NCBI GenBank assembly: GCA_021323475.1
Contig: JAJQJM010000009.1
Span: 1 to 40,873, forward strand
Reading direction: 5' to 3'
Source: Vampirovibrio sp.
GTDB taxonomy: Bacteria > Cyanobacteriota > Vampirovibrionia > Vampirovibrionales > Vampirovibrionaceae
DNA length: 40,873 nucleotides
The notes beneath the pieces were generated by a model. That model did not search any database. It was given only the letters and a program-made list of their open reading frames with translations, and was not told where the DNA came from. Positions within the stretch are counted from its first letter, which is position 1. Each line of letters begins with the position of its first letter. Position numbers and translations under genes: made by a program. This document shows positions 967 through 21,191 of this stretch, in pieces.

Positions 967-1569
967 ATGGGTTATCGAGCCCGATCCTATGAGCCGGAGT
1001 TGAATGTGCTAATTCAGCCGCACCCGCTGGGCCGTCATACTAGCTTCAGCAAAGGCATGGCCAACCAGACCTTCTTGTATCGGGGGCAATCCATGCTGAG
1101 CAATGGCAACGCCCAATTCCTGGATGGAGCTGGCATTGATGAGCACCTGCAACTGAAAGTGGGCACCTTGAATGCCGATTACCTCACCGACCATCTGGGC
1201 TCCACCTCTCACCTGGTCAATAGTGCCAACGGCCAAGGCAAAGCCCGGCTGGATTACTCTAGCTACGGCGCTTTGGAAGCGGATGATCGTAATCCTTTAA
1301 CCGCCAACCCCTACACCTACACCGGCCGGGAAGATGACGGCACGGGCCTGCTGTATTACCGGGCCCGCTATTATGACCCGGAGTTAGAAGTATTTATCTC
1401 GCAAGACCCGCTGGGGGATGCCCAGCGGTATGTGGGTGGAAACCCGATGAGCTTTGTGGACCCTCTGGGATTGTATTTGCGTGGTAAGGGACTAACAGCA
1501 AAGATGGTCACACAGATTGAACAATCAGCGCGTTACGATTCTCCGTCAGCGATCCAGTCCTGCAATTGA
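967..1569 (+). pseudogene. Orphan Rhs-core C-terminal fragment with no recognisable toxin domain
   Basis: [43 protein letters not shown] and [11 protein letters not shown] motifs of the RHS repeat-associated core. ORF starts inside the core and ends directly against the first CRISPR repeat. Confidence 0.75.
1504..1539 (+). repeat. Degenerate terminal CRISPR repeat, followed by a 30-nt spacer (1540-1569)
   Basis: The last 14 nt (CAGCGCGTTACGAT) match the repeat 3' end at 13/14; exactly 30 nt separate it from the first perfect repeat. Confidence 0.8.
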
Positions 1570-4313
1570 GTCATAGCTTCCTTACGCACACCAGCGTGTT
1601 ACGATTCTTCTGGATACGGTATTCGATGAATTTAAGTCATAGCTTCCTTACGCACACCAGCGTGTTACGATGCAGATGAGGCACAGCATCACCATGTTTG
1701 AGTCATAGCTTCCTTACGCACACCAGCGTGTTACGATCTATTCTGGCCGACCAGATCCCCTTCGTGGGTCATAGCTTCCTTACGCACACCAGCGTGTTAC
1801 GATCTTCCTACCCATCAGATGAGCGGTTTTTCAGTCATAGCTTCCTTACGCACACCAGCGTGTTACGATTGGCTTTGTTTCCTTAACGCCGTCTTTTCAG
1901 TCATAGCTTCCTTACGCACACCAGCGTGTTACGATAGTGTTTTGTGTTTGGGCACGAACATCCTCGTCATAGCTTCCTTACGCACACCAGCGTGTTACGA
2001 TAAGTTGTGGACTGGTAATCGACAACGTTTAGTCATAGCTTCCTTACGCACACCAGCGTGTTACGATCTTGAGGAGGTACGCAAGGCCAAGGGATTGGGT
2101 CATAGCTTCCTTACGCACACCAGCGTGTTACGATCGTAAATCTCTCATCGTTTCCGCTTCTACAGTCATAGCTTCCTTACGCACACCAGCGTGTTACGAT
2201 ATTGGGTGCTTCGGCAGATCAACTACGTTTGTCATAGCTTCCTTACGCACACCAGCGTGTTACGATCTGTCTGAGTATTTATAAACATCTTTGAGTGTCA
2301 TAGCTTCCTTACGCACACCAGCGTGTTACGATTCGATAAGAAACAATGGCAAGACCCGGAAAGTCATAGCTTCCTTACGCACACCAGCGTGTTACGATCA
2401 CGTGTTCGTGGAGGTGTAGAGCGTCGCCGTCATAGCTTCCTTACGCACACCAGCGTGTTACGATTCTTTGACCCGGATCGCCCGGAGGGCTACAGTCATA
2501 GCTTCCTTACGCACACCAGCGTGTTACGATTTGCTTTGCATCCAGGTGGCGGCGTTCATGGGTCATAGCTTCCTTACGCACACCAGCGTGTTACGATTGG
2601 GCACAGTTACTCCTCCTCTGCCTCTCGGTCATAGCTTCCTTACGCACACCAGCGTGTTACGATCACTGTTATACAACTCAGCGCGTGTTTTATGTCATAG
2701 CTTCCTTACGCACACCAGCGTGTTACGATACTACATCCGAACTAGAGACAGCAACAGAAGTCATAGCTTCCTTACGCACACCAGCGTGTTACGATTTATT
2801 TTCGCCTGCCAATGCGCAATTAATTAGTCATAGCTTCCTTACGCACACCAGCGTGTTACGATTTCCACGTATTCGATGTAAACAAAACCAACGTCATAGC
2901 TTCCTTACGCACACCAGCGTGTTACGATACCTCGGCTGGTACTAACTCGTGCTTCCGTGTCATAGCTTCCTTACGCACACCAGCGTGTTACGATGCTCAG
3001 GAATAATCATCCCGTCTTCTTGACGTCATAGCTTCCTTACGCACACCAGCGTGTTACGATCCACTATGGCGAGGGAAAGGCATGACCTTCGTCATAGCTT
3101 CCTTACGCACACCAGCGTGTTACGATTCAGATTCGCGGCTTGAAGTACAAGGAACAGTCATAGCTTCCTTACGCACACCAGCGTGTTACGATTTCGGTCG
3201 TCATGATTACCGACGTACATTCGTCATAGCTTCCTTACGCACACCAGCGTGTTACGATAAAGCCAATCTAGCGGACTCTGGTGAGAATGTCATAGCTTCC
3301 TTACGCACACCAGCGTGTTACGATCCGCCGTTTGCAATGGGTTTACCGGTAACGGTCATAGCTTCCTTACGCACACCAGCGTGTTACGATACATTGTAAT
3401 AGGAGCGTGGAGCATATGGCGTCATAGCTTCCTTACGCACACCAGCGTGTTACGATGCCGGATACGTTTCCTTTACTGCAACGGTGGTCATAGCTTCCTT
3501 ACGCACACCAGCGTGTTACGATCCCGCTGGACTCATCACCGAAACGTTTATTGTCATAGCTTCCTTACGCACACCAGCGTGTTACGATTTTACACAGAAG
3601 ATGAGCACGGGAAACCGGTCATAGCTTCCTTACGCACACCAGCGTGTTACGATGCGTTCCGTAAGTTCCCGGTCAGTATCGAGGTCATAGCTTCCTTACG
3701 CACACCAGCGTGTTACGATTTCAACAAGGCGACCCCAACCGCCACAATGGTCATAGCTTCCTTACGCACACCAGCGTGTTACGATTGGATTGTGAACAAT
3801 GATCCCGACTTCGTAGTCATAGCTTCCTTACGCACACCAGCGTGTTACGATCAGCGGGCATAATGGGATTGGTCAAGGTCGGTCATAGCTTCCTTACGCA
3901 CACCAGCGTGTTACGATGAGGGCTCCTTCTCCGTAGTCTCTCAAGGCGTCATAGCTTCCTTACGCACACCAGCGTGTTACGATGAAGCCGAGTGGGTCAA
4001 TGAACTTACCATAGTCATAGCTTCCTTACGCACACCAGCGTGTTACGATTAAGGCGCTGTTTTATCAAAGCCGAGTTTGGTCATAGCTTCCTTACGCACA
4101 CCAGCGTGTTACGATTCCTGAAAAATCATTGAACGCCTTGTGCCGGTCATAGCTTCCTTACGCACACCAGCGTGTTACGATGAGCGTGGTTGGTGGTAGG
4201 TCTGCCTAGCGGTCATAGCTTCCTTACGCACACCAGCGTGTTACGATCGTACTGAGGCGGATAGACAAGCACGTTGGGTCATAGCTTCCTTACGCACACC
4301 AGCGTGTTACGAT
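1570..4313 (+). CRISPR. CRISPR array, 42 repeats / 41 spacers (type II-C)
   Basis: Repeat GTCATAGCTTCCTTACGCACACCAGCGTGTTACGAT (36 bp), no variant copies seen by eye; spacers almost all 30 nt (a few 29 or 31). Strand assigned from complementarity to the tracrRNA anti-repeat. Confidence 0.98.
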
Positions 4314-4344
4314 AGATCCAGCCAAAAGCCTTTATAAGAAGCTA

Positions 4345-4392
4345 AAAACGCTCCCCCCTTCTCAAAATAAAACGAGTTGCTGGGAGCGTTTT
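4345..4392. terminator. Bidirectional terminator between the array (+) and cas2 (-)
   Basis: AAAACGCTCCC (4345-4355) pairs with GGGAGCGTTTT (4382-4392); T-rich downstream on either strand. Confidence 0.65.
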
Positions 4393-4691
4393 GTTTCATT
4401 TTCAGTCCTTTTTCCAACCAGTAATTGCATGCGGCCATATTGCAAATCCGTGACTTTCAATATTCGAACCTGCCCCTGCGGTGGGGTGGCAAGTTTGAGG
4501 CGGGCAATATGCTTGTCTACCCGCTCTTCTCCTCGACAAAGTCTAGCATAAACAGACCACTGGAGCATAATATAGCCATCCTGAAGGAGAGATTTACGGA
4601 ACCGGCTAGCTATTTTGCGATGCAGCTTCGTGACTACGGGAAGATCGAAAAAGACCATAATCCACATATAACGTTCTCCTTCAGCAGGCAT
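4362..4691 (-). CDS. cas2: CRISPR-associated endoribonuclease Cas2
   Basis: YMWIMVFFDLPVVTKLHRKIASRFRKSLLQDGYIMLQWSVYARLC matches the Cas2 N-terminal signature; 109 aa; 1-nt overlap (TGATG) with the cas1 stop. Confidence 0.95.
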   Translation of the reverse strand: MPAEGERYMWIMVFFDLPVVTKLHRKIASRFRKSLLQDGYIMLQWSVYARLCRGEERVDKHIARLKLATPPQGQVRILKVTDLQYGRMQLLVGKRTENETKRSQQLVLF

Positions 4692-5599
4692 CAGAAAGTG
4701 ACCCTTAGTAAAGCAGCAGGCTCTTTGTCTCGTAGCGCCCGAACTAAAGACTCGCTAAGCCGCTGACATCCAAGGGGCAAGGGCGTCACTTCCTGATCGA
4801 TGGTACAGTTTTTCTGAGTGAGCAACACGAGCTGGTGTTTGGCGAAACGCGGCAACTCGTTTGAAACATCCTCATCCCCGGTTGATTCAACTTGCTGCAC
4901 CAACTGATATACGGTTTCATCCACCAGAGGTCGGAAAGGCTCAATGAGATCATCGACAAGGTTAAAGGCGTTGAGCTGGCTTTGATGGTTCAGACCGAAA
5001 CAGGGGAGCAGACCGTTGGCTACGACAGCCCTGGCCATAGCGCCCCGAAGAATGGCGTAACCGTAGTTGAGTGCGCTACTTGTCCAGTGGGTTTGGCTGA
5101 AACGCCGGAATCTTGTCCCGAAAAGACGAGGCCAGTAGAGCTTGGCCGCTTGGGCTTCCTTATTGCCTTTATCACCACTTTGCACTTCCCGAGCCAAGGC
5201 TTCCAGAAGATGGTTATCTTCAGAATCGCAGCGCTCCAGACACACAGCCTGGTTGAGGATTTTATTTTGTACCAGTTGCTGCCAAAGGCGTTTTTTCAGG
5301 GGCAGGCTGGCCTCAACCTGGATTTGGGCTACCTGGAGTTGTCGACTGTGCTGGTGGAAGGGCATCAACAGGCCATTGGGGATATGTTTTTCATCGCAAG
5401 TATAAACAACCACCCCTTGGGATTGGAGGTGAGCTAATAGGGCTGTGCTGATTTGGCCATAGTGAGATTCCAGGACCACACTGTGGAGTTCTTCTAAAGG
5501 CAGGGTTAGAAGTTCTCCCGCATCACTCCGGCAGACCAGCTGGCCCTGCTTGAGGCTGAGTTGGGCGGGTTTTTCGACGAGAAGGGTTTGCCAGCTCAA
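4691..5599 (-). CDS. cas1: CRISPR-associated endonuclease Cas1 (TTG start proposed; ORF track start is 5659)
   Basis: (M)SWQTLLVEKPAQLSLKQGQLVCR matches type II Cas1 N-termini; AGGAG lies 7 nt upstream of TTG; NYGYAILRGAMARAVVANGLLPCFGLNHQSQLNAFNLVDDLIEPFRPLVD is the Cas1 core. Confidence 0.93.
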   Translation of the reverse strand: MSWQTLLVEKPAQLSLKQGQLVCRSDAGELLTLPLEELHSVVLESHYGQISTALLAHLQSQGVVVYTCDEKHIPNGLLMPFHQHSRQLQVAQIQVEASLPLKKRLWQQLVQNKILNQAVCLERCDSEDNHLLEALAREVQSGDKGNKEAQAAKLYWPRLFGTRFRRFSQTHWTSSALNYGYAILRGAMARAVVANGLLPCFGLNHQSQLNAFNLVDDLIEPFRPLVDETVYQLVQQVESTGDEDVSNELPRFAKHQLVLLTQKNCTIDQEVTPLPLGCQRLSESLVRALRDKEPAALLRVTF

Positions 5600-8500
5600 G
5601 GCGTTTCTCCTGTTTGACGAGGGACACTTCACCAAAATAGTTAACGATACATTTTTCAAAGGATTTTAGATTCTGAATCCCAAACTTGTGTTTTCCTTTT
5701 TCAAGGTCGGTTTCGTCGTGATTAATGATCTTGATTGCTCCGCTTGAACGATCACATGTGACGTAATATCCAAAAGTCACAACACCATCTTTAGAGATAA
5801 GCTTTAGTAAATCTTTTGGATAAATTGAAAACTTAAACGTATAGCTAGCATCAATGCATGGCCAGTCCGCTTCAGCTTTTCCCGATTTAACTACTTGATT
5901 TGGTAATTTTTTGCTATAGACCTCTTTTGCATAAAGAATGGCCATGAAGTATTTATTATCTTTTTCAAAAATATCTATCCGTATCACATCCCCGTTAGAA
6001 GCAATCCCGTTTCGAACTTCCATACCACTCTGATCGTTCGTTTTAAGTCGGACGTGTTGAATGAGTGGGCCTTGTTTATTCGGATCTTTGGTAGGCATAT
6101 AAACCGGATCCTTGAAGGCTTTTTTGCCATCATTATTGAATGCTTCCAGGCGTTGCTTGAGAGTATGATACAGAGCTTGGTTCCGTTCCTTGTCCACTAG
6201 GCTTTCCAATTTGTCAAGGTTTAGACTTTCTATTACAACGCGCTGGACGGTATAAGCCTTGCCCTCGCTATCATGTCGTAGTGAGCGGATGGTTCCCTGA
6301 TGGAGCTGGCCGCTCATTTTTCGGCGCGGCATGCGAGAGACAAACACATTTTTGACTGCTTCAATCACCTCGTCTCGAAATGTTTCCCACGGTTTGGGGA
6401 CTTCAAGTTCATGATGCCGGGCTTCATGCTTACGGTACCGTGTAATGGCGGTAACCATGGATTGCGTTGTGGCAGCAATGACCAGGGCATCCTGGGCATG
6501 ATGATTGGCAGAGGCTGCGCGATCCTTGTTCAGTCCCCACTGATATCGGAGGTGTGCCGTAATTTGCCCGCTGACCACCATGACGCGCCGTTTTTTCTCG
6601 ACGGGTGAACCGGAAAAGTCTAGATATTCTTCCAGATAGGTTTTGAGCAAACGGGCAATATAGCGTGTATCATTGAGATGACGTTCTTTCCAGGCATCTT
6701 CCTGAGAGTCGGTCAGGTTGGTATTTTTAAAATTGCGCCGTTTATTACGGTGTGCCAAAGAAGTGATCGCCAGAAATTGATCCCATCGTTCAGAGTCTTT
6801 TCCAAAATACTCCCAAGGTGTATTATCACCTTTTTTCTGATTCTCGGTAGTCAGGCAGAGACACAAGTTGAAGAAGCTATTGTCGTAGGTACGTCTATAC
6901 GGCAGAATGTGATCGATTTGGGTATAGAGCGAATCTTTTAACTGTTCCGGCTTGATGTACTGGAAGCTGTAGGGACAATATCCCTTTTGCTCTTTCCACA
7001 GCTTGTACTTTGTAAGGCCGACATTCTGCTTTAATTCGTCCAACATTTCCTGATAGAGCCTGTCATTAAGCGCCTTGTTGGCATCCTGGCGTTTTTTAAT
7101 CTCTTGCCGATCATCCCAGGATTTACCCAGCTCTCTTCCCAGCTCGATATGAATGGCGTCAATGGTGATCCCTAACGATTGGCAACGACGGTAGATAGCG
7201 TTGATCACCTTCCGGCTTTGGGCCAGAGCGCGATCCACCACAGGATTATTGGTCTTTTCAAAAGCCGGCAGGTAATTGGAACGTTTTCTTTCCGTTTTCT
7301 GGTAGCCTGCTAATACAACCGCCTTATCATAGGTTTCTCCACTTTCCAGAAATGGCAGCAAGTTGGTAATGGCCTTGCAGGAATGGCCAACCGTACCTTT
7401 GAAATCGGCAATTTCTTTTAAGACACTTATTTGTTCTTCCGTTAGACTCAGACGGGCTCCCCGCAGCGCTTTTTCAATGGCCAACTCGTCCTGCTCAAAA
7501 CTTAAAATTTCGCTGATCGTGTCCCACAGCACCGTATCAATGATTTGTGCGGGCAGAATGTCTTTGAGTGCGTGATAGCCCGTCATTTTAAACCATACTT
7601 TCTTCTCGGCATCTTTTACAACTGCCTCAAAATTCAGAGCGGCGTCATTGTCCTCTTGCGCCTTTGCTGCTTTTTGTTTAGCCGATTTTTTGGCACCGCT
7701 CCAAGAATATGCCAATCCTTTAATGATATAAGGAATATCAGATGAGCCGCAGATTTCCCGGATATGGGAATAATTAACGGTTTTGATCTGGTGAGCTTTT
7801 TCAAACAGTTGAATCCGCTGCTCAGGGGCGAGGGCGCGCTCCTCGCCATTGTCAAACAACAAGCGGAGATGGTTGATTTTTTGCCACAAGACAAATAGTT
7901 CGCCAGAACGGGAAAATTTGGGAGCTCGTGGTTCATCGGGCTCCAGAGAGCATGGACCCACTAAATCACGAACCGAGTGCAATGGACGCTGGAAAAAGGC
8001 GATATTTTTGAAACCCTCCTCCAATACGGCAGTTGCTATGGTATTACCAAGACTCCGCTGTTTTTCAAACAGAATAGTCACTTCCTCATAGACTAAGTCT
8101 CTGAGAACAGTTTTGCTGTACTCATTGTTACCATTGCGTTTTTTGCCAGACTGAGAGGCTAGATAGGCTCCAATAGTTTCGCATTGGGCCTCGTCCATTT
8201 GCTGCTTAAGGGTTTGAGCAGCTCCCAGCATTTTCTTATTTTCCTCAGAGCCGGACTTTTGATCCTTGCGATTGGATTTGAATCCTCTCCGTTTTGCAAG
8301 ATGATAAAGGGCTCGAGCAAATCCCTCGGGAGTTAATATACGGATTAAGCCTTCTTTTCGTAATTCCCAGGGCGTTTTCTCGCCACAAACTTGCACATCA
8401 ATAAAATCGGTAGGGAGGCCAGCATTTAATAGGAGTTCTTTGATATGCCTGCGTCGGGCGGCGCGTCTGCGAATGGTTCTGCGTTGTCCTCGGGCAAGCC

Positions 8501-8648
8501 TCCGAGGCAAAGCCAGGGATGCCCCGGTTTTTGGAACTTCTGCCTTATCAAACAAATGGACACCGGTAAACACAATTTTTTGTGCCTCTGTATCGATCAG
8601 TCCAAAGCCGCAGGATGCAATCCCAATATCCAAGCCGAGTAAATACAT
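5523..8648 (-). CDS. cas9: CRISPR-associated endonuclease Cas9, type II-C, 1041 aa
   Basis: RuvC-I GLDIGIASCGFGLID; arginine-rich bridge helix RGQRRTIRRRAARRRHIKELL; RuvC-II IHIELGRE; HNH QIDHILPYRRTYDNSFFNLCLCLTTENQKKG; RuvC-III HHAQDALVIA. Confidence 0.97.
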   Translation of the reverse strand: MYLLGLDIGIASCGFGLIDTEAQKIVFTGVHLFDKAEVPKTGASLALPRRLARGQRRTIRRRAARRRHIKELLLNAGLPTDFIDVQVCGEKTPWELRKEGLIRILTPEGFARALYHLAKRRGFKSNRKDQKSGSEENKKMLGAAQTLKQQMDEAQCETIGAYLASQSGKKRNGNNEYSKTVLRDLVYEEVTILFEKQRSLGNTIATAVLEEGFKNIAFFQRPLHSVRDLVGPCSLEPDEPRAPKFSRSGELFVLWQKINHLRLLFDNGEERALAPEQRIQLFEKAHQIKTVNYSHIREICGSSDIPYIIKGLAYSWSGAKKSAKQKAAKAQEDNDAALNFEAVVKDAEKKVWFKMTGYHALKDILPAQIIDTVLWDTISEILSFEQDELAIEKALRGARLSLTEEQISVLKEIADFKGTVGHSCKAITNLLPFLESGETYDKAVVLAGYQKTERKRSNYLPAFEKTNNPVVDRALAQSRKVINAIYRRCQSLGITIDAIHIELGRELGKSWDDRQEIKKRQDANKALNDRLYQEMLDELKQNVGLTKYKLWKEQKGYCPYSFQYIKPEQLKDSLYTQIDHILPYRRTYDNSFFNLCLCLTTENQKKGDNTPWEYFGKDSERWDQFLAITSLAHRNKRRNFKNTNLTDSQEDAWKERHLNDTRYIARLLKTYLEEYLDFSGSPVEKKRRVMVVSGQITAHLRYQWGLNKDRAASANHHAQDALVIAATTQSMVTAITRYRKHEARHHELEVPKPWETFRDEVIEAVKNVFVSRMPRRKMSGQLHQGTIRSLRHDSEGKAYTVQRVVIESLNLDKLESLVDKERNQALYHTLKQRLEAFNNDGKKAFKDPVYMPTKDPNKQGPLIQHVRLKTNDQSGMEVRNGIASNGDVIRIDIFEKDNKYFMAILYAKEVYSKKLPNQVVKSGKAEADWPCIDASYTFKFSIYPKDLLKLISKDGVVTFGYYVTCDRSSGAIKIINHDETDLEKGKHKFGIQNLKSFEKCIVNYFGEVSLVKQEKRLELANPSRRKTRPTQPQAGPAGLPE

Positions 8649-9142: not shown

Positions 9143-10342
9143 CTAGACAGTGGCTTCAACGAGCAACTCCAAAGGTGTCGCAGAGGAAGCCTTTTTAATT
9201 TTAAAGTTTTCATCATTCATACAAAAGGCCAATGAATCGAACAGCATCCCTGGAATCCGCATGAGGTCATCCGGGGTATCCAAGTAAATGCTGTCTCCGG
9301 TTCCTAGCTCAAGACCAGCTCTTTCGATTTCGCTCTTGTATTTTTCGGTCAGAGGAACGATGAATTGCAGAGTTGGACGTTTTTTGTTGGCATTATAGCG
9401 GAATAGCCAGCGATTAACTTTGCCTTGGAAAAGGAGTGCAAAATAGCTTTCAGTATCCTTTGGCACAATGGCAGCGTCATCGGCTTTGCCCTTCAGCAAA
9501 GATTTGGCCACTTCCTGCAACCGGCGCTCATCTTTGGTAGTGATGATCTTGGAATTAGTCGGATCAACAATATCCTCGTCTTCTTGAATAAGTATATCGT
9601 CGATCTCGGCATCGACTTTTACCGGTTCGGAGGGTATATTGAGGCTATTGACCACCATACCTGTCATTGCTTCGGCAACAGCCCGCTTCACCAATGGGGT
9701 CATAGAATCTAAGACCTTTTGAGTCATTCTCAGGTTAGGTGATGCCTTGGTAATTACAAAGCGGACAAAATCTGGGTCCATTTCACGGAGGCTGCTTTGG
9801 ATAACTTCCTTGAACTTGGCTAAATATGCCTGATCTTCAGCAAAGGTCCGAATACTTTCAGCTTTAATATGGTCATAGCGGAAACGGGCCATTTCCTCTA
9901 TATCCGAGTCCTTAAGATCAAGAAAATCCACCACAAAGAAGGGCTTATCATCCATGACGTTCTCTAACTTAAGGTCAGTAAAAAACTTCCAAGTTTGGCC
10001 GTTTGTCAAAGCAGCAATACGAACACCAGGGGTAGAGTTAAAGTATCTTGCAAGCTGGGGAGCATGGTTTCCCAGCTTTTCGCGATAGGCCTTTGCCTCA
10101 ACAAACATTACAGGTTGTCCCTCATGGAAAAGGGCATAGTCCACTTTTTCAGTCTTTTTGATGCCTGGAAAGTCTGCAAGGTACTCGGATTGAACCTTTA
10201 GAGGGTTGTGGGGCGTGAAGTCCAGAGTATTCATCAACGGAAGAATTAAAGCCTGCTTTGTAGTCTCTTCGGAGATACAATGTACTCCCATTTCTTCAAC
10301 ATGCGTGGCGTGGTGACGTAATTGTTCTTCAAATTTTTCCAT
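9143..10342 (-). CDS. HsdR_N-like / predicted type IV restriction endonuclease-like protein (PD-(D/E)XK)
   Basis: KVDYALFHEGQPVMFVEAKAYREKL resembles the D...(E)AK nuclease motif of type I/IV restriction N-terminal domains. Confidence 0.7.
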   Translation of the reverse strand: MEKFEEQLRHHATHVEEMGVHCISEETTKQALILPLMNTLDFTPHNPLKVQSEYLADFPGIKKTEKVDYALFHEGQPVMFVEAKAYREKLGNHAPQLARYFNSTPGVRIAALTNGQTWKFFTDLKLENVMDDKPFFVVDFLDLKDSDIEEMARFRYDHIKAESIRTFAEDQAYLAKFKEVIQSSLREMDPDFVRFVITKASPNLRMTQKVLDSMTPLVKRAVAEAMTGMVVNSLNIPSEPVKVDAEIDDILIQEDEDIVDPTNSKIITTKDERRLQEVAKSLLKGKADDAAIVPKDTESYFALLFQGKVNRWLFRYNANKKRPTLQFIVPLTEKYKSEIERAGLELGTGDSIYLDTPDDLMRIPGMLFDSLAFCMNDENFKIKKASSATPLELLVEATV

Positions 10343-10363: not shown

Positions 10364-13300
10364 TTAGGCTGTGACGACTTTAGACACTCTCTTTTCAGAG
10401 AGTACCTTTTCAAGCGTTTGTTTTAAACGGAACTCTTCACGTCTTGGGTCTGAGAACCAGTCTGTTGACCAAATACGGTGCAAGGTCCATCCCTTTGATT
10501 CCAAAACCTCTTGGCGTAAACGATCACGGTCTCTGGCAGATTTGGCACTGTGATATGAAGCCCCATCGCATTCAATACCAAAGAGAAAATCGTTCTCCCA
10601 ACTTGGATGTTTTACCCCGATATCAATAAAATAACCTGACACACCAACCTGAGGAACAGCAATACATCCCAGGCTTTCAATGGTTGAAATTACACATTCT
10701 TCAAATTCTGAATCAGGCAGGCGGTTTGAGGCTTCCCCAATACTTAAATTACCCTGGTTTGCAGAAAATTCTAACCATTTTTTAAGCATATATGGGCCTG
10801 GCTTTGACTCATCTGCAATCACATCCGTAGGCTTCATTGAAGTGAAAGTAACAATCCTTTGTTTTGCCCGAGAGAAGAGAACATTAAGGCGACGCTTACC
10901 AGCAGCACCATTAATCGGGCCAAATCGCTGCATAACAGGACCACCTGCTTGCTCTGGGCCATAAACAGTACCGATGAAAATAACATCCCTTTCATCACCT
11001 TGCACATTTTCCAGATTTTTAATGAAGAACTTTTCGATCCCACCATCTTTCTGGGACCAATAAGAGATATATTCTTTGGCTTGTGGATTCTGATCGAGAG
11101 CGTAGCTCCATTCCTGCTCGATTAAGTCTTTTTGTTTTTGGTTCATTACAACAAGACCAAGGGAAAGATCAGGATGGTCTTTAACAAAGTGGAGTACCGC
11201 CTGAACCATTTCGTGTGCTTCGATTACATTTATACTAGACCTGTACTCTCCAGGAACGAAGACTTGAGACACGCCATATAAAGACGTATTCAGGCTAGGT
11301 GATGGAAATACGACCAATTTACTGTTGTAGACATAATAGTTAGAGAATGCAATCAAGCTCTCGTGTCTAGAGCGATAGTGCCAACTTAAACGCCTTGCAG
11401 GTAAAAAGACCTTGTTGGCCATCTCAAGGATAGATTCGTCTACTACGCTTTCATCTTCATCATCACCGTCAGCCGGGGCGAACATTTTCCCAAAGAAGTT
11501 TGAAGGCGGCAACTGGTTTGTATCACCAACAACCATTACCTGCTTGCCCCTACAAATAGCTCCAATCGCATTTTCTGGAGTCATCTGTGAAGCTTCATCA
11601 ATAATGACCAAGTCAAATTCAATACTACCTTTCGGAATATATTGGGCAACAGTAAGAGGTGACATCATCCAGCAAGGTTTAATCTCTTGAAGGGCTTGGC
11701 CAGCTCTTCTCGTCATTTCTCGGACAGGAATAATCCTCGCTCTCTTCATTGCTTCATTTTTCAATAGAGAAAGTTCTGTGAATTCGCTTTTTCGCCCTTT
11801 ACACACCCCTTCAGGTGGCCGTGCATTTTCAATAAGCTTGCTTCTTAGTTTCAGCCTGGCAAGATTGACCAATTCCTTATCTGTATCAGCAAGCCGCTTA
11901 CGCAAGTCATTTAAGCGTTCTCCAGAATATCTCGTTACAAAATTCCCATGCTGATTGCAGATTTGTCTAAACATTTCCCTATAGATAAGCGCTTCTGTAA
12001 TATCGCCAAAACCGTGAATCGTTTCTGAGAGATAAGCAAGATTATCAATAAGAAAACTAAAGCCTTTGTCAGAAAGTTCCTGCTTTACCCAGGCCAAGTT
12101 TCGATATGCTTCAAGCCCTGTACGATCTTCAGCCGCTTCAAAGAACTTACTTGAATTATCATAAAGGGCAAGGAACGCATCTTGTTGAACATCTGGTATA
12201 TTAGCGCGCTGAATCAATACTTGGGTAGAGTCTTGGACGTCTCTAGCTTTAATGGCGATAGACTCTTTCAGCGTGACGAGGGTATGAGTTTGGCCATTTT
12301 CGAGAATATACAATAAGACATCTCTTAAATCTGTATCCAAGTGATTTGCCGTCTCTGCTATATCCAAAGCCCGATCCAGGTCATCGCTCTGCGTATCTGC
12401 ACCCAGAAAAGCTTCTCCGAGGATAGCTTTGACAGTGTTATTTGAAGCTAACAGAGACCAAGCATTGCTCAACTCAGTTACTTCCTCAATTAGTTTGGGA
12501 ATTTCATGAACAATAACATCGTCAGGATTATTAAATACAGAAGAGCACTCTTGGATTCTCTCTATATTTAGTTCCAAGGTTTTTAGCTGTTCCTCATATT
12601 TTTTCAGTTGCTCCTGAAAAGTGTTAAGGCCTATACTAAGCGTTTCGTCTTTAAACCTGTTAAACGTTTCTGGCTTGGGAAATAACATTAGGTTATCAAT
12701 TGAAGTGTTATGTAGAAAATCTTTTACTTGAACGCCGTCTGGGCCTGTTAAGGATTGATTTAAAGCCGCATAAAACTCTGTAATTGCTATAAATGGTTCA
12801 AACTGAGTATCAATTCCATGAAAGTAATTGCCGAGAAGTCCCTGTAGGCCACTAGAGTTATTAAATTCTTTTATTTGAGAAAGAAACTCTAATAGCTTTC
12901 GTAGTTCTAAAACTGCTGTCTCATTGCCCATCCACTTGTGTTTACAGATAGTCAAATAGAAGTGCTTAGCTTGGCGATATTCAGATTTCAAAAATGAAAA
13001 GATATTGGCTGAAGAAAGCTGCCCGATATGACTCAAAATTACCGATTCATCAGGCAGGACATTCAGTATGAATATCTCTTCAGTTTGCTCTTTTTTTCTT
13101 TTGATTAAAGAAGCCGTTTCATATCCTTGTTTGATATTAAAAGCAGCCATTGAGGTAGAAAGTTCGGATCTCCTTAGCTCAAGAGCATTTTGAGGAGTTT
13201 GCTGGAGAATTTTTGATACTGTATACATAACCTGCAAGGAAACACCCTCTACAGGGGTATTCAGTGCTTTTATAGATTCAATAAGTTGAATGGCTTTCTT

Positions 13301-15478
13301 ATGCTCAGTAATTGAAGCTTGTGTTAAAGAAATAATACTTTCCTGCTCAGTTTTACCAAGAGAGCTCAGATTGCACTCGTTGAGTAGCTTATAAAGCCTA
13401 TCTAGAGTGCTAGCCAGCTCAGGATGGTTAGGCTCTTTCAGAACAGCACGAAGACCATCACGACTGCATCTTGTGACTGCGGCAGATTCCAGAAACTTGC
13501 GAACCTCTGCCAAGCTTTCAGGTGTACTTAACCGTTTTGCCATTAGAATAGCATCCGGCTCATCTACTTTCCCAAGGGTGTCAATAGTGCTGATAAGCTG
13601 ATCCAGTTGCTCCAGAGTTGAGTCAGGTTTTAGTTTTAATTCTTGTAAACCACCTCTAACCAGGACTAGTTCTTCAAACTTATGGCCAGCCTGTTTAGCT
13701 GCTTGTAGGGTTCTTTCTATAGCCATCGGATCAGAATCCATCAAATATGAAAACTGCCAATAATCTTTGCAGGATGTCGCATGTTTCCAGAGGCTGAAGA
13801 ACCTGTCGCAAAGCTGCTTAATCTCTCCGATTTCTGTTTTGGATAGTGTTTCAATTTCTGAGATTGGATAATCCAGAACACTATCAGGAAGAGCTTCGCA
13901 ACGATGCCTTTTAGAAATGTGCTTCCAGATAATATCGTGTACAGTAAGCCCAGTATTGCCATAAGACTGGGTTACTAGATGAAGATATTCTGCAATGTCT
14001 TGTCTTGCCTGCCTGAAGGACCTGTGAATCTGTTCATACTCAAGTGGCGAATGTTCTTTATTCATTTCCAGGCGAGTTTTTACGCTTGAGACAACCTCAG
14101 TCTTACTGGCGCGTGTTGAGTGGAGGGGAAGTAGAAATTCTCCAAGCCCAAACGCCTCAAGGCGGTTTTTTACAACTTCCAATGCAGCAGCCTTTTCAGC
14201 CACAAAAAGCACTTTTTTACCTTGTTCTAGAGCTACCGCTATCGCATTAACAATAGTCTGCGATTTGCCCGTCCCAGGAGGCCCTTCTACTGATAGATTT
14301 CTGCCTCCAGCTATATCGGCCAGGACACTGTATTGGGAGGCATCGGCCTGAGTGACCAAAAGCGGTACTTTAGCTTCAACCTCAGGAGCATCAGCGTGAT
14401 AATCTTCGGCGTAGATAGTAAGACTGTCTCCACCGTCCATACTGCAAAAAAGGTCTTGCAGTACAGGGTGTTCCGTTAAATCAAAGCCATTTTCACCTAA
14501 CTGAGCTGTATCGAGGTCTTTATATAAAGCTAGGGTGGTTGAAGGGAAAATACCAATAGCAATTTGCCGCTTTACCTTGCATGGCTGGCGATTAATGGAT
14601 ATATCTGATAGACGGCTGAAATATGCTTCCGGACTTTCATTCTCTTCTAGCTTTGGAAGGTTAATATCGAATTCTTGGGTAAACTTTTCGATCAGAACAG
14701 GGTTCAGTTCAACCGAATCGCCGTTGCTGGTAATCCAAAACTCACTGCCCTTGGTCGTTAAAACCTTTTCCATTGTTAGGCGAAGCAATAGTAAGGGAGC
14801 AAAATGCTGCTTACTGCCTATCTGTTCTTGCCATTCCAGAAACCCAAAAGCAGCATAGAGAATATTTACGCCAGTTTCTTGTAAGCTCTCTTCGCATTTT
14901 GAGGAGATCTTATCCAGGTGTCGATGCAGAGAATCTGGGAGCATCAGGGTTTGTATGTCATTATCCTGATGCTCTTCTTTTAATCCGACTGCTCCTGGCA
15001 ACGGCAAGTCATAATGGGGCGAAATTTGGTTGTTACGGGCATGTTGCTCCAAGGATACATTGGTATGCGTGATACGCGGAGGGAGGCCTAACTGTTCTCT
15101 AACACGGTCTTTTAAGCGCCTTTCAAGTTCAGCCTGTTTTTGAGGCTCATTTTCATCACTGAGCGAAAGTTCATCTACTTCAGCCTGATAAATACTGTCA
15201 TTCAGCATGGCCTCTGCCAGAGCGTCTTGGAACACCTGCGTTTGCTCGTCTTTCGGGTCCTGCTCTATAGCGGGAAGTGCTAAGACCCGCATTTGCCCAT
15301 TGGAAAGCTTTTCAGCAAGCACGTCCGGCAGCTCATCAACCACACGCACATAAGATATACTTCTGCTACTAAATTTTGTAGATAATAATGGGTTCTTTGT
15401 CGAAAGCTCTAAGAGTTTGGGGCGAAGCTTTTCGATTTTTCCTTTAACTAAAGGGGCATAAGATTCAAGGCTGCTCAT
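10364..15478 (-). CDS. DUF4011-type SF1 helicase with C-terminal MTES_1575/Vsr-like endonuclease domain (1704 aa)
   Basis: N-term KLRPKLLELSTKNPLLSTKFSSRSISYVRV (DUF4011-like); Walker A GPPGTGKS; Walker B FDLVIIDEASQM; GDTNQLPP; C-term FLFGIECDGASYHSAKSARDRDRLRQEVLESKGWTLHRIWSTDWF (PD-(D/E)XK). Confidence 0.88.
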   Translation of the reverse strand: MSSLESYAPLVKGKIEKLRPKLLELSTKNPLLSTKFSSRSISYVRVVDELPDVLAEKLSNGQMRVLALPAIEQDPKDEQTQVFQDALAEAMLNDSIYQAEVDELSLSDENEPQKQAELERRLKDRVREQLGLPPRITHTNVSLEQHARNNQISPHYDLPLPGAVGLKEEHQDNDIQTLMLPDSLHRHLDKISSKCEESLQETGVNILYAAFGFLEWQEQIGSKQHFAPLLLLRLTMEKVLTTKGSEFWITSNGDSVELNPVLIEKFTQEFDINLPKLEENESPEAYFSRLSDISINRQPCKVKRQIAIGIFPSTTLALYKDLDTAQLGENGFDLTEHPVLQDLFCSMDGGDSLTIYAEDYHADAPEVEAKVPLLVTQADASQYSVLADIAGGRNLSVEGPPGTGKSQTIVNAIAVALEQGKKVLFVAEKAAALEVVKNRLEAFGLGEFLLPLHSTRASKTEVVSSVKTRLEMNKEHSPLEYEQIHRSFRQARQDIAEYLHLVTQSYGNTGLTVHDIIWKHISKRHRCEALPDSVLDYPISEIETLSKTEIGEIKQLCDRFFSLWKHATSCKDYWQFSYLMDSDPMAIERTLQAAKQAGHKFEELVLVRGGLQELKLKPDSTLEQLDQLISTIDTLGKVDEPDAILMAKRLSTPESLAEVRKFLESAAVTRCSRDGLRAVLKEPNHPELASTLDRLYKLLNECNLSSLGKTEQESIISLTQASITEHKKAIQLIESIKALNTPVEGVSLQVMYTVSKILQQTPQNALELRRSELSTSMAAFNIKQGYETASLIKRKKEQTEEIFILNVLPDESVILSHIGQLSSANIFSFLKSEYRQAKHFYLTICKHKWMGNETAVLELRKLLEFLSQIKEFNNSSGLQGLLGNYFHGIDTQFEPFIAITEFYAALNQSLTGPDGVQVKDFLHNTSIDNLMLFPKPETFNRFKDETLSIGLNTFQEQLKKYEEQLKTLELNIERIQECSSVFNNPDDVIVHEIPKLIEEVTELSNAWSLLASNNTVKAILGEAFLGADTQSDDLDRALDIAETANHLDTDLRDVLLYILENGQTHTLVTLKESIAIKARDVQDSTQVLIQRANIPDVQQDAFLALYDNSSKFFEAAEDRTGLEAYRNLAWVKQELSDKGFSFLIDNLAYLSETIHGFGDITEALIYREMFRQICNQHGNFVTRYSGERLNDLRKRLADTDKELVNLARLKLRSKLIENARPPEGVCKGRKSEFTELSLLKNEAMKRARIIPVREMTRRAGQALQEIKPCWMMSPLTVAQYIPKGSIEFDLVIIDEASQMTPENAIGAICRGKQVMVVGDTNQLPPSNFFGKMFAPADGDDEDESVVDESILEMANKVFLPARRLSWHYRSRHESLIAFSNYYVYNSKLVVFPSPSLNTSLYGVSQVFVPGEYRSSINVIEAHEMVQAVLHFVKDHPDLSLGLVVMNQKQKDLIEQEWSYALDQNPQAKEYISYWSQKDGGIEKFFIKNLENVQGDERDVIFIGTVYGPEQAGGPVMQRFGPINGAAGKRRLNVLFSRAKQRIVTFTSMKPTDVIADESKPGPYMLKKWLEFSANQGNLSIGEASNRLPDSEFEECVISTIESLGCIAVPQVGVSGYFIDIGVKHPSWENDFLFGIECDGASYHSAKSARDRDRLRQEVLESKGWTLHRIWSTDWFSDPRREEFRLKQTLEKVLSEKRVSKVVTA

Positions 15479-15841: not shown

Positions 15842-17347
15842 ATGCGTACACTAATAGATACAAACATCTTCATTGGCCTTGAAGACTTTTCTTTACTGGA
15901 TGAGACATTGAGTGAACTTGACAGAATACACAGAGAAAATGACATTCTGTTTTTAGTTCACCCGCTAGTCCGCACAGAGATTGAAAGGGATAAGCTAAAG
16001 GATAGGCAAGATCGTGCCTTGTCAAGGATACATAGGTATCCTGAACTGAGTAATCCACCGGATTATTCTGAGCTGTTTCGTGAGAAATATAATATCGAAG
16101 CTAAAAATCCAAATGAATTAGTCGACAACGCCCTGTTAAGTGCCGTTTATGGTGACGCCGTTGCCTTTTTAATCACTGAAGATAAGGAAATTCACAAAAA
16201 GGCAAAAAAATTAGGCCTTGATGAACGCGTCTTTAGGATTGTAGAAGCACACGAACATTTCAAAAAAATATATAGTTTTCAGCCAGTCGTTTTACCCAAT
16301 ATTAAAGAGGTCGAAGTTCACGAAATAAGGCAATATTTGGAAACCTCATTTTTCGATGACCTCAGGGAGTCATATGGAACCAAAATGTTTAATGATTGGT
16401 TTATCAAAGCAGCCCAGGGAGGCCGACGAGCTTGGTACTGTCACGACGATCAAGGGGATTTAGGTGCTGTCTGCATTTATAAAGACGAAAATGGAGAAGT
16501 CATTACGGATGATCACCGTGGTTTTGACGGTAAAGTATTAAAGCTCTGCTGCGTAAAGGTTGGGGAATCTGTTAGGGGTCGAAAAATTGGTGAATTGTTT
16601 TTCAAGGCTGCTTTTCGCCATGCCAAATACAACAAACAAGAAAAAATCTATTTGACTCTCTATGCGGATAAATTACCTCATTTAGTAGAATTATGTGAGG
16701 ATTTTGGGTTTGAGTATTTTGGCAAAACAAAAAAAACCGGCGAAGATATTTATTTCAAAGAACACCCAATAAACCCACCAGAATCCTCACTCAGCGCATT
16801 GGATTATCATAAAAAGCATGCACCACACTTTAAATGTGATGACTCTGTTGCAAAGTACCTTGTTCCTATTCGCCCTCCGTATCACGAAAGACTTTTTCCT
16901 GATTGCTATTCTGAACGAGGCACCCAACAAACATTTTTCAGTGTAGGCGTCTCATTTGGAGAGTCATTTCCAGGCAATGCTATAAAACAAGCGTATCTTT
17001 GCAATGCAAATAATCAAGGTATCAAACCAGGCGACTTGTTATTGTTTTACCGTTCCGAAGATCTAAAAGAAATTACAACTGTTGGAGTCGTTGAGTTTGC
17101 CGGACACTTCAGCAATGCCGAAGAGATACTTAAACGGGTTGCCAAAAGAACCGTTTATAATAGAAATGAGATAGAACAGATGGCGGCGACTAGCTGCCTT
17201 GTTATCCTGTTTCGACTAGCCTGTCATTTTCAATATCCTGTGCCCTATACCGCACTTGGGGATTATGGGATTAAAGGTCAAATCAGGACTATCAGAGAGA
17301 TAGATGATGAATCGTTTAAAAAAATCCATAGCAAATCCGGACTCTAA
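15842..17347 (+). CDS. Three-domain fusion: PIN-like nuclease - GNAT acetyltransferase - PUA/EVE-like domain
   Basis: PIN acids in LIDTNIF, LVRTEIERD, LVDNALLSAVYGDAVAFLITEDKEI; GNAT motif VRGRKIGELFFKAAF; C-terminal NQGIKPGDLLLFYRSEDLKEITTVGVVE is PUA-superfamily-like. Confidence 0.75.
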   Translation: MRTLIDTNIFIGLEDFSLLDETLSELDRIHRENDILFLVHPLVRTEIERDKLKDRQDRALSRIHRYPELSNPPDYSELFREKYNIEAKNPNELVDNALLSAVYGDAVAFLITEDKEIHKKAKKLGLDERVFRIVEAHEHFKKIYSFQPVVLPNIKEVEVHEIRQYLETSFFDDLRESYGTKMFNDWFIKAAQGGRRAWYCHDDQGDLGAVCIYKDENGEVITDDHRGFDGKVLKLCCVKVGESVRGRKIGELFFKAAFRHAKYNKQEKIYLTLYADKLPHLVELCEDFGFEYFGKTKKTGEDIYFKEHPINPPESSLSALDYHKKHAPHFKCDDSVAKYLVPIRPPYHERLFPDCYSERGTQQTFFSVGVSFGESFPGNAIKQAYLCNANNQGIKPGDLLLFYRSEDLKEITTVGVVEFAGHFSNAEEILKRVAKRTVYNRNEIEQMAATSCLVILFRLACHFQYPVPYTALGDYGIKGQIRTIREIDDESFKKIHSKSGL

Positions 17348-18497
17348 AATTGCTTTTATGCCAATTAAGCCCGTTTATGCGGAAAAACTAATAAATGGTG
17401 AAAAGCACTTTGAATTCAGAAGGAGACCTATAAGCTTAAACTTGACTCATATTGTGGTGTATGCCAGTTCACCCGTACAAAGGATTTTGGGCATAGCAAA
17501 AGTAAATCAAGTTTGTATTGCAACCCCTACAGAAACTTGGCTTAGGACTAAAGAGTTTGCAGGAATTGCAGAGGATGCTTTTGCTGAATATTTCTCTAAC
17601 TCAGATATAGCTTATAGCATAGAAATTGAACCTGACGAAACTATAAAACTAGACAAGCAGATTCATCCAAGGGAAATTGATCCTGAATTTCAAGTCCCTC
17701 AATCATTCAGATATGTTGAGGAAAACTTTTTATTTCAAATTTTGGCTAAGGGTTTTTACAATAAATATAAAAAATCAGGATACACGTTGATGAATCTTAT
17801 TGATTCTAGATTAAATGATATTAATACTCAGATGAAAAACTGGGCAAATAGGTCTATTACTTTTGATTTTGATTCAAATGGAACAAATCTATATTCCATA
17901 CTTGAGCTAGCCTATAGTTTTGCAAAAAGATTTGTCGAACTGTCGGGATCTCTCCAAATAATGCTTGAACAGGAAAATTTAGTAGCTGCAGCAATAATAG
18001 CTAGAGCCCTTTATGAAACTGTGGGTATGGGATGTTTATACATAGATAAAATTACAACGCAAATAGAAGCAAAAGATTTAAAACTTCTCAATGAGAATTT
18101 TTTGCAACATTATACTGGTTCTTGTGATGGAGAAATAAAGCCTGTCCGAATCACCAAAGCGATTCAACATCTTGAATTGGAAGAGTTAGCTTACTTGGAT
18201 TATTTAAGCCAGAAAATATCTGCAATGAAATCACTCCTAGAACTAATGAAGGAAGATGGCAAAGATAGGCCAATGAAAAGCAATTATGCTTTTTTATGTG
18301 AACTAACTCATCCCAATGCACTCGGAACTCATTTGATCTATGGAGATCCAGTTCTTTGTGAAGAACACATAGCCAGTATTAAGTTCAAGATTTATACATC
18401 ATCCACAATGGCCGTAGCCATAGGGCATCATCTATTACTGGCACTGGAAAGGACAAACATGATACCAGAGTCCTATAAACAGGCATTTTTGGAGTAA
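17304..18497 (+). CDS. ASCH-domain protein with C-terminal DUF5677/HEPN-like helical region
   Basis: IAFMPIKPVYAEKLINGEKHFEFRRRPISLNLTHIVVYASSPVQRILGIAKV matches the ASCH pattern; overlaps the upstream gene; YAFLCELTHPNALG resembles DUF5677-type proteins. Confidence 0.68.
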   Translation: MMNRLKKSIANPDSKIAFMPIKPVYAEKLINGEKHFEFRRRPISLNLTHIVVYASSPVQRILGIAKVNQVCIATPTETWLRTKEFAGIAEDAFAEYFSNSDIAYSIEIEPDETIKLDKQIHPREIDPEFQVPQSFRYVEENFLFQILAKGFYNKYKKSGYTLMNLIDSRLNDINTQMKNWANRSITFDFDSNGTNLYSILELAYSFAKRFVELSGSLQIMLEQENLVAAAIIARALYETVGMGCLYIDKITTQIEAKDLKLLNENFLQHYTGSCDGEIKPVRITKAIQHLELEELAYLDYLSQKISAMKSLLELMKEDGKDRPMKSNYAFLCELTHPNALGTHLIYGDPVLCEEHIASIKFKIYTSSTMAVAIGHHLLLALERTNMIPESYKQAFLE

Positions 18498-18501
18498 ACT
18501 T

Positions 18502-19255
18502 GTGTCAAATTTCTCAAATTTTGCATTAAAGCTTGCAAACTCAAATCTTGCATCTGCTTTCTTCGGGGCTATTTTAGGTGCCCTTACTCTGTGGAGTATC
18601 GAGTGGATAAAGGAAGAACATGCATTAATTAAAGATGTAAACACCTCTCTGGCAGGGCTAAAATATTTATCAGAAACCTTGCTAAACATGAAGAAGCAAA
18701 TTGTTATACCAATATGTCAAGCTTATCAAAATAACATTGAGCAAATTAGGAAGTCAGCCGGGCAGCCTGTTCATCTCAATCTTTCGACAAATACTTATTC
18801 TGCCCCAAGACTAAGTTTTAACTTTCCAACCAATAGGATATTTTCAAAAGTCACAGTTGTTCCCAAGATCATCGATTCGATTATATATTTACAAAACTCT
18901 ATGGAGCAACTAGACCACTTATGGCAAAAGCACAATAGCTCTTATAGAAGAGCTTCGACTAAAAGACGAGGATAGTGAAAAATTAAAAATCTTTTTTGGA
19001 CGCTATTCCAATTCAATTTACCAGGATGGCCGATATGAAGACATGATAGAGCATATTAGATTAACAACTGATGATGCCCTTTTCTATGCAGAACGAGCAA
19101 AAGAATGTCTATCTAAAATTGGTAATCAAAGCATATTTCGGAAAATACCCCCATGTTTCTTACGACCCTTATTGATCGACTATAGCTTTCAAGACTCATC
19201 ATACGCAGAGCTTATTCCTACCATAAACCATATATCTGGCTGGGGAAATGATTAA
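18502..19255 (+). pseudogene. Frameshifted single-TM protein downstream of the ASCH gene (GTG start)
   Basis: Frame 1 ORF 18502-18975 (TM helix LASAFFGAILGALTLWSIEWI); reading continues in frame 2 as TIALIEELRLKDEDSEKLKIFFGRYSNSIYQDGRYEDMIEHIRLTT... to 19255; switch near CAAAAG at about 18925-18930. Confidence 0.55.
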
Positions 19256-19627: not shown

Positions 19628-19963
19628 ATGAACCCCAAAAACGATATTACCCTGCAAGAAGCCACGAAACAGTATCTCAAGTCATTGGAGGAAGCCGGTA
19701 AAAGCCCACGGACACTTTATACTTACGGCCAAGATTGCAAACAAATGATCGCCTTCTTTGGGGTAGACAAAAAGCTCACCAACATTCTACCCGCCCATGT
19801 GGCCAAGTTCTACAAGTCAGATGAGCTTTTGAAAATTCCCAAACAGGGGAAAGACCGAGCCCCCAAAACCATTAACAAAACCAAAATGGTCTTCCGAGGC
19901 CTGCTCACCTGGGCCAAAGAGCAAGGGCACATTGAAGGACTCCCTCTACCAAAAAACCAGTAA
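19628..19963 (+). CDS. Truncated tyrosine recombinase (core-binding/SAM-like N-terminal domain only)
   Basis: LQEATKQYLKSLEEAGKSPRTLYTYGQDCKQMIAFFG...INKTKMVFRGLLTWAKEQGHI; no catalytic domain follows. Confidence 0.7.
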   Translation: MNPKNDITLQEATKQYLKSLEEAGKSPRTLYTYGQDCKQMIAFFGVDKKLTNILPAHVAKFYKSDELLKIPKQGKDRAPKTINKTKMVFRGLLTWAKEQGHIEGLPLPKNQ

Positions 19964-20028: not shown

Positions 20029-21000
20029 TTAATCCCAAGCACGCATCGCCTCAATGGTCTCATCTTCAGTGGTCATACAATAGGAGCGGGTGGTGGCAAT
20101 ATTATTATGACCACAAGCAATCTGCAGCATCACCAATGGTCTACCCTTGTTGGCATTCAAAGTCACAAACGCTCGCCGTAGGGCATGCGGAGTTACTCTG
20201 ACATCTACCCGGTCTCCAATTCGATCCAATCGGTTCCGAATGCCAAAGCGATCCATCCGGTTGCCATGACGGTTAATCAGCAGCCACGCTTCTGCCACTT
20301 TGGGACGATAAGTCAGATAAGCCTGAATTGCTTCAATCACTTTGCTGGATAAACCTACGCGCCGGGTTTTACCCCATTTGGCAACCATTACCGTTAGATA
20401 TTTTGCCTCATAATTAATATCTTTCAGCTTCAGATTGGCCGCTTCACTCACACGAAGGCCCGTCTGGCTAAGTAGAATGACAAGCAACCGTTCCAGCGGA
20501 TTCTGGCAAGCTTCTATGAGCTTTTCCAGCCCTTTTTGATCCACCGTAATCTTTCGTTCTGGTAAGTGACGCCGAGGACGGAACTTCTTTGATTCAATCA
20601 GATATGCTGGCTCTAAGGCTTTTTCCTGGATCAGAATCTTAGCCAAGCTTGAGACAGCCTGATACATTTTCTGACGTTTGGCAAAATGCTCGGTAGGAAT
20701 AGCAAGCAATGCCTTTTTCAGCGTTTCCAACGAGATTATGTGATAGCGTTCCAAGAACCAGCGAGCGTAATATGTATAGGTTTCAATGGAGATTGCACTG
20801 TGGGGTCTACCGTCCATTAGGCCAAAGCGCATGGCGTCTTCCCAAGCGGGTAGATAGTCCAGATGATTGGTTTCAGAGGTCATCGAGGTCATAAATGGGC
20901 TCCTATTTGATCGGGACACCGCATTCATCACTCTTTGGGGCGCTAAAGTCCACTTCCTCTCAGGAATTGTGTGCTGACAGACACAGATGAGCACTTCCAC
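20029..21000 (-). CDS. Tyrosine recombinase/integrase (start codon uncertain)
   Basis: TGLRVSEAANLKLKDI, VAKWGKTRRVGL, TPHALRRAFVTLNANKGRPLVMLQIACGHNNIATTRSYCMT: catalytic R, K, HxxR, H and Y all present. Confidence 0.92.
   Translation of the reverse strand: MEVLICVCQHTIPERKWTLAPQRVMNAVSRSNRSPFMTSMTSETNHLDYLPAWEDAMRFGLMDGRPHSAISIETYTYYARWFLERYHIISLETLKKALLAIPTEHFAKRQKMYQAVSSLAKILIQEKALEPAYLIESKKFRPRRHLPERKITVDQKGLEKLIEACQNPLERLLVILLSQTGLRVSEAANLKLKDINYEAKYLTVMVAKWGKTRRVGLSSKVIEAIQAYLTYRPKVAEAWLLINRHGNRMDRFGIRNRLDRIGDRVDVRVTPHALRRAFVTLNANKGRPLVMLQIACGHNNIATTRSYCMTTEDETIEAMRAWD

Positions 21001-21116: not shown

Positions 21117-21191
<75 letters not shown>

Follow-up and report, generated by a model that had tools for sequence, protein, structure and literature searches.

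What does a protein that combines a predicted RNase, an acetyltransferase and a base-reading type of domain do together with a small-domain partner, next to CRISPR-Cas genes? This question is raised by two overlapping genes of Vampirovibrio sp. (assembly GCA_021323475.1), which we name here A and B. The whole stretch of DNA that we analysed, 40,873 nucleotides of contig JAJQJM010000009.1, is called the window; features of the gene pair are listed in Table 1. An earlier interpretation made from the letters alone (the sequence-only reading) had regarded the pair as an uncharacterised system which targets RNA or nucleotides. The coordinates, reading frames and 44-nt overlap that it gave were found to be exact.

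Table 1. Features of the A/B gene pair, in positions of the window
Feature	Position	Strand	Basis
ORF A, 501 aa, PIN-GNAT-EVE protein (PDC-M11A)	15842..17347	+	PADLOC 8.6e-128, alignments
PIN-like RNase domain of A, residues 1-150	15842..16291	+	D6, D95, D114 invariant
GNAT acetyltransferase domain of A, residues ~155-310	16304..16771	+	acetyl-CoA loop R245-G-R-K-I-G250-E251
EVE (PUA-superfamily) domain of A, residues ~335-501	16844..17344	+	Pfam, family profile matches
ORF B, 397 aa, ASCH-DUF5677 fusion	17304..18497	+	44-nt overlap with ORF A
ASCH domain (PDC-M11B) of B, residues ~13-147	17340..17744	+	PADLOC 7e-38, ZmASCH
DUF5677 domain of B, residues 157-397, helical	17772..18494	+	Pfam 1e-06, residues 203-340

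Protein A is a member of the PDC-M11A family

The match of A to PADLOC PDC-M11A (PDLC04422) covers residues 1-499 of 501, and at the PADLOC E-values obtained for A and B chance is not an issue. When full-length A was scored as a single sequence, the Pfam matches to PIN, GNAT and EVE were under the curated cut-offs, thus the domains were assigned from the family as a whole. The N-terminus matches PIN_12 at 0.0013, while PIN_3 is found in 8/14 relatives. Residues D6, N8, D95, T112 and D114 are invariant in 14 diverse relatives, in line with the earlier description of the acidic PIN residues as apparently intact. For the GNAT domain, Acetyltransf_1 was matched by seven of nine relatives (best 2.6e-08), a Foldseek search with the model of A found GNAT structures at 3e-07, and four positions of the RGRKIGE loop (G246, K248, G250 and E251) do not vary in the alignment of relatives. 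The C-terminus matches EVE at 0.0034 (8 of 12 relatives match, the best at 1.6e-07), and it also gave weak profile matches to the EVE structures 2ar1 and 1zce. The three-domain composition proposed from the letters is thus confirmed by the PDC-M11A match and holds in profile searches through the family. The model of A (mean pLDDT 75, pTM 0.39) does not give the relative arrangement of the domains.

Protein B joins an ASCH domain to DUF5677

The nearest solved relative of the PDC-M11B (PDLC04424) region of B is ZmASCH of Zymomonas mobilis (5guq, 1.1e-11), and the model of this half agrees with ZmASCH at a TM of 0.83-0.84, which bears out the earlier ASCH call. ZmASCH, which lacks DUF5677, is reported to cleave ssRNA weakly and in a Mg-dependent manner in vitro (PMC5615036). 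Of its cleft residues, Tyr47 aligns with Y53 of B and Ser128 with S134, whereas Lys53 is replaced by Q59. We also considered B as an N4-acetylcytidine amidohydrolase of the YqfB type, whose signature is a Lys-Thr-Glu triad with Arg (PMC6972931). Alignment of YqfB with B by motif spacing led us to reject this candidate: B and nine relatives (ten proteins aligned) have K34-x-x-E37-x-R39, with Glu where the Thr nucleophile of K-x-x-T-x-R is needed.

The C-terminal half of B had been described as HEPN/DUF5677-like. The DUF5677 part of that description stands, as the Pfam match is over its cut-off. The HEPN part is not supported: no HEPN family was matched, and the conserved H180 (alignment numbering, four relatives) is not preceded by an Arg at the spacing of an R-x(4-6)-H motif. 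A different motif, NYxFLxExxHPN, is conserved between B and its relatives on rhizobial plasmids. The DUF5677 profile had no match in the PDB, not even at an E-value of 10, and in this region the model of B has a pLDDT of ~26-63 and no usable fold match.

Although the sequence-only reading noticed this part of B, it did not single out the fusion as unusual. The ASCH proteins of nine relatives from the same class have only 129-135 aa, and in the wider phylum the ASCH-holding open frame does not exceed ~200 aa, except in a GNAT-ASCH fusion (L061). At 1e-4, the DUF5677 half of B matched only itself in 388 phylum genomes, and it had no match among the phage records. No second ASCH-DUF5677 fusion was found in the plasmids, phages and phylum genomes searched; within this range, the fusion is apparently new. 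The relatives used throughout came from these three sets and from E. coli genomes.

Free-standing relatives of the DUF5677 half were found in four Rhizobium/Neorhizobium plasmid records, 31-35% identical (32-35% over the entire C-terminal half of B). These proteins share the motif with B but lack ASCH, and they adjoin base-modification genes, not PIN-GNAT-EVE genes. In L048, genes for a ThyA homologue and an aGPT-PPlase/ADDT enzyme come after the DUF5677 gene, as profile searches confirmed, and L049 has the same gene order. In L047 the DUF5677 gene comes last in a series made up of Dam (as annotated), an unknown gene, GHMP kinase and Ham1-P-loop kinase. This placement of the only close free-standing relatives found, next to base-modification genes on rhizobial plasmids, is apparently a new observation as well. 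The regions L048:3944-6777 and L049:3962-6795 are possible base-hypermodification cassettes.

The pair lies in a low-GC island with other defence genes

The pair is flanked by a gene for an Hhe-like helicase-nuclease (10364-15478) and by a tyrosine recombinase gene (20029-21000, minus strand), which adjoins an integrase N-terminal-domain fragment (19628-19963) and tRNA-Val (21117-21191, minus strand). Beyond the Hhe-like gene, away from the recombinase side, there are a CRISPR array, cas1 and cas9, in agreement with the defence-cluster position noted earlier. The GC content is 0.40 for A and 0.35 for B, in comparison to 0.51-0.53 for host-like genes nearby and 0.49-0.53 for genes beyond the recombinase. 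As the two halves of B are nearly equal in GC (0.344 and 0.350), we infer that the ASCH-DUF5677 fusion probably arrived as a unit. A is absent from the four congeners. No second copy of the tRNA-Val end was detected within the window.

Some further features of the region were recorded. The Hhe-like gene (minus strand) encodes a 1704-aa DUF4011/helicase/MTES_1575 nuclease protein which is also PDC-S37-like; its Hhe-like match of 1160 bits is under the NCBIfam cut-off of 2000, and a 399-aa HSDR_N protein (9143-10342) adjoins it. The CRISPR locus (1501-8648) comprises an array of 66-nt units from ~1501 (38 copies in register reported), cas1 and a cas9 of type II (1041 aa). Upstream of A, a search for operator-like repeats gave just one short inverted repeat with 10-nt arms, which may be due to chance. 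A small gene C (18502-19255, plus strand) begins 4 nt past the stop of B and encodes an N-terminal hydrophobic stretch. Its frame breaks near 18940 and resumes in another frame to 19255, so either the gene is frameshifted or the assembly contains an error. We rejected gene C as a third component, as it has no convincing relatives.

A-like genes are found directly upstream of B-like genes

At 1e-8, PDC-M11B was detected in 33 genomes of the phylum, and 30 loci were read. In 28 of them, a complete or fragmented A-like gene is located directly upstream, a co-occurrence of the kind that the earlier reading had proposed to look for. The second-round profile weakly detects ASCH too, and A was counted only from a separate upstream frame. 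The remaining loci are L061, where GNAT and ASCH are fused in one protein, and L078, which is devoid of A. The L061 protein (L061:32-937) consists of GNAT and an M11B-type ASCH, with no PIN or EVE matches. The distribution of A itself is patchy (11/388 phylum genomes at 1e-30); integrase genes adjoin several copies, and further copies reside on phages and plasmids. In L010 and L012, proteins of 315-356 aa that are 42% identical to each other (L010:3001-3948, L012:426-1496) are encoded directly upstream of PIN-GNAT-EVE; they have a C-terminal hydrophobic stretch and no PADLOC match.

Each of the 15 phage records in which A occurs has B too, though these records represent few independent lineages. 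Among phage records the A-type effector was never seen alone, whereas the ASCH partner can be: psiM2 has the ASCH gene without A, and in the related psiM100 A starts in an inserted fragment and overlaps the ASCH gene. In E. coli, the homologous genes annotated as GevT and GevA are each present in 275 genomes, the two sets being taken as the same from overlapping annotation in the rows shown, and the sole broken copy is that of GevT. This asymmetry between effector and partner is weak evidence, since the phage lineages are few and the E. coli copies are near-identical.

In other ASCH-only phages, a different GNAT gene or an unknown gene precedes ASCH. The ASCH gene of Streptococcus and Oenococcus phages comes after genes for a ParB-like protein, an ABC-type ATPase and a small GNAT. 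These four genes are consecutive in L083, L085 and L086 (Javan141, MismyG and Vinitor23), and in both annotated phage records the row immediately precedes the gene for the terminase large subunit. Taken across loci, the recurring core looks like GNAT plus ASCH, with PIN and EVE as additions.

The pair is a variant of an already predicted kind

The sequence-only reading presented the system as undescribed, which has to be corrected. PIN-GNAT-EVE and ASCH operons are catalogued, and Bell et al. 2020 (PMC7641849) relay a prediction of Iyer et al. that they form toxin-antitoxin or modified-base systems; at the time of that review no such module had been characterised experimentally. In addition, PADLOC includes PDC-M11A/B, and a phage record annotates GevT/GevA. 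Among the papers searched, none was relevant to PDC-M11 or GevT. The Vampirovibrio pair shares with PDC-M11 and the Bell et al. operons the full-length A, the ASCH domain of B, the gene order, the overlapping frames and the association with CRISPR and other defence genes. It differs in that B has an extra C-terminal DUF5677 of ~240 aa, and in that no HTH or AAA_17 gene adjoins the pair. Judged by its sequence, it is thus a variant, with an added domain, of an already predicted kind which PADLOC lists as a defence candidate.

Two other comparisons are instructive. In Escherichia phage PhiR47_2 (PV340567), GevT/GevA are annotated as toxin and antitoxin and consist of a GNAT-EVE gene and an overlapping ASCH gene which match PDC-M11A/B; GevT, unlike A, has no PIN, and GevA (125 aa), unlike B, has no DUF5677. 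In the Methanothermobacter element psiM100, the PIN-GNAT-EVE gene ORFD overlaps the ASCH gene ORF5, with 31% identity over 98% of A. Here ASCH stands alone, without DUF5677, and the inserted fragment in which ORFD starts is absent from psiM2.

A conflict module is the favoured explanation

What we observe directly are the domains, the conserved catalytic-type residues, the almost invariable pairing of two genes whose frames overlap, and the location in an island. On balance we consider it probable, with moderate confidence, that the pair is a horizontally acquired conflict module of the PDC-M11 kind, which acts like a toxin-antitoxin or abortive-infection pair. This view is based on the PDC-M11A/B matches, the conserved PIN and GNAT residues, the upstream pairing in the phylum together with the L061 fusion, the pairing in phages and E. 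coli, the toxin/antitoxin annotation of PV340567, the low GC, the absence from four congeners, and the CRISPR-Cas9 and Hhe-like neighbours. The toxin or defence function suggested earlier was right as to type, as a prediction. In such a module, the EVE domain would place A on a nucleic acid, either at a modified base or on an RNA, for example tRNA. There, GNAT would move an acetyl group from acetyl-CoA onto an amino group, and the PIN domain would cut RNA. The ASCH protein may bind the target of A, or A itself, and silence A until infection; B would serve as a check on, or a guide for, an acetyltransferase/RNase effector. Since A keeps all its own domains, we read DUF5677 as an extra module that acts as a sensor or an adaptor; joined to ASCH, it may supply a sensing part linked to modified bases. 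In a more specific version, DUF5677 would sense or process hypermodified pyrimidines or the corresponding nucleotides, and by joining ASCH it would make the PIN-GNAT-EVE module a defence against phages bearing such bases; this is speculative and rather doubtful at present.

The main rival is base marking and reading, a self-marking proposal that also goes back to Iyer et al., as reported in PMC7641849, where both kinds of explanation are already found. Here the GNAT of A would acylate a DNA or RNA base, EVE and ASCH would read the mark, PIN would act on unmarked or foreign nucleic acid, and the DUF5677 half of B would provide the tie to hypermodified bases. Recognition of modified bases is indeed known or predicted for EVE and ASCH (PMC7641849). 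The ASCH genes that follow ParB-like, ATPase and GNAT cassettes, and the DUF5677 relatives beside ThyA and aGPT-PPlase/ADDT or beside Dam, GHMP kinase and Ham1-P-loop kinase genes, suit base marking as well as or better than a toxin-antitoxin-like module. However, an RNase-type PIN is present in the same chain as GNAT, and no methyltransferase-like or precursor-synthesis gene adjoins the pair in the window. We thus regard base marking as a serious explanation, yet not a likely one.

It is improbable that B itself is the RNase or RNA-processing enzyme, with A regulating or assisting it. The in vitro activity of ZmASCH and the retention of two cleft residues in B would fit such a role, but that activity is weak, one of the three cleft residues is changed, and the classical nuclease and transferase domains sit in A. 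A housekeeping pair of RNA metabolism with no conflict role, which the sequence-only reading named as a possible refutation, is very improbable: PIN, GNAT, EVE and ASCH are also found in RNA metabolism, but vertical conservation across the genus or family is not seen. Such a role is largely disfavoured by the patchy spread of A, its absence from the congeners, the low GC, and the copies that are carried by phages and plasmids or lie beside integrases.

Implications

PIN-GNAT-EVE/ASCH pairs are found in bacteria, archaea, phages and plasmids. Should the Vampirovibrio pair acetylate nucleic acid as well as cut it, two activities would be combined which, to our knowledge, are otherwise known only from separate toxins. 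With DUF5677 genes lying beside base-modification genes, the fusion offers a concrete lead to the signal that the reader half may detect. If DUF5677 senses or processes hypermodified pyrimidines, conflict systems based on base modification would have in it a component not recognised so far.
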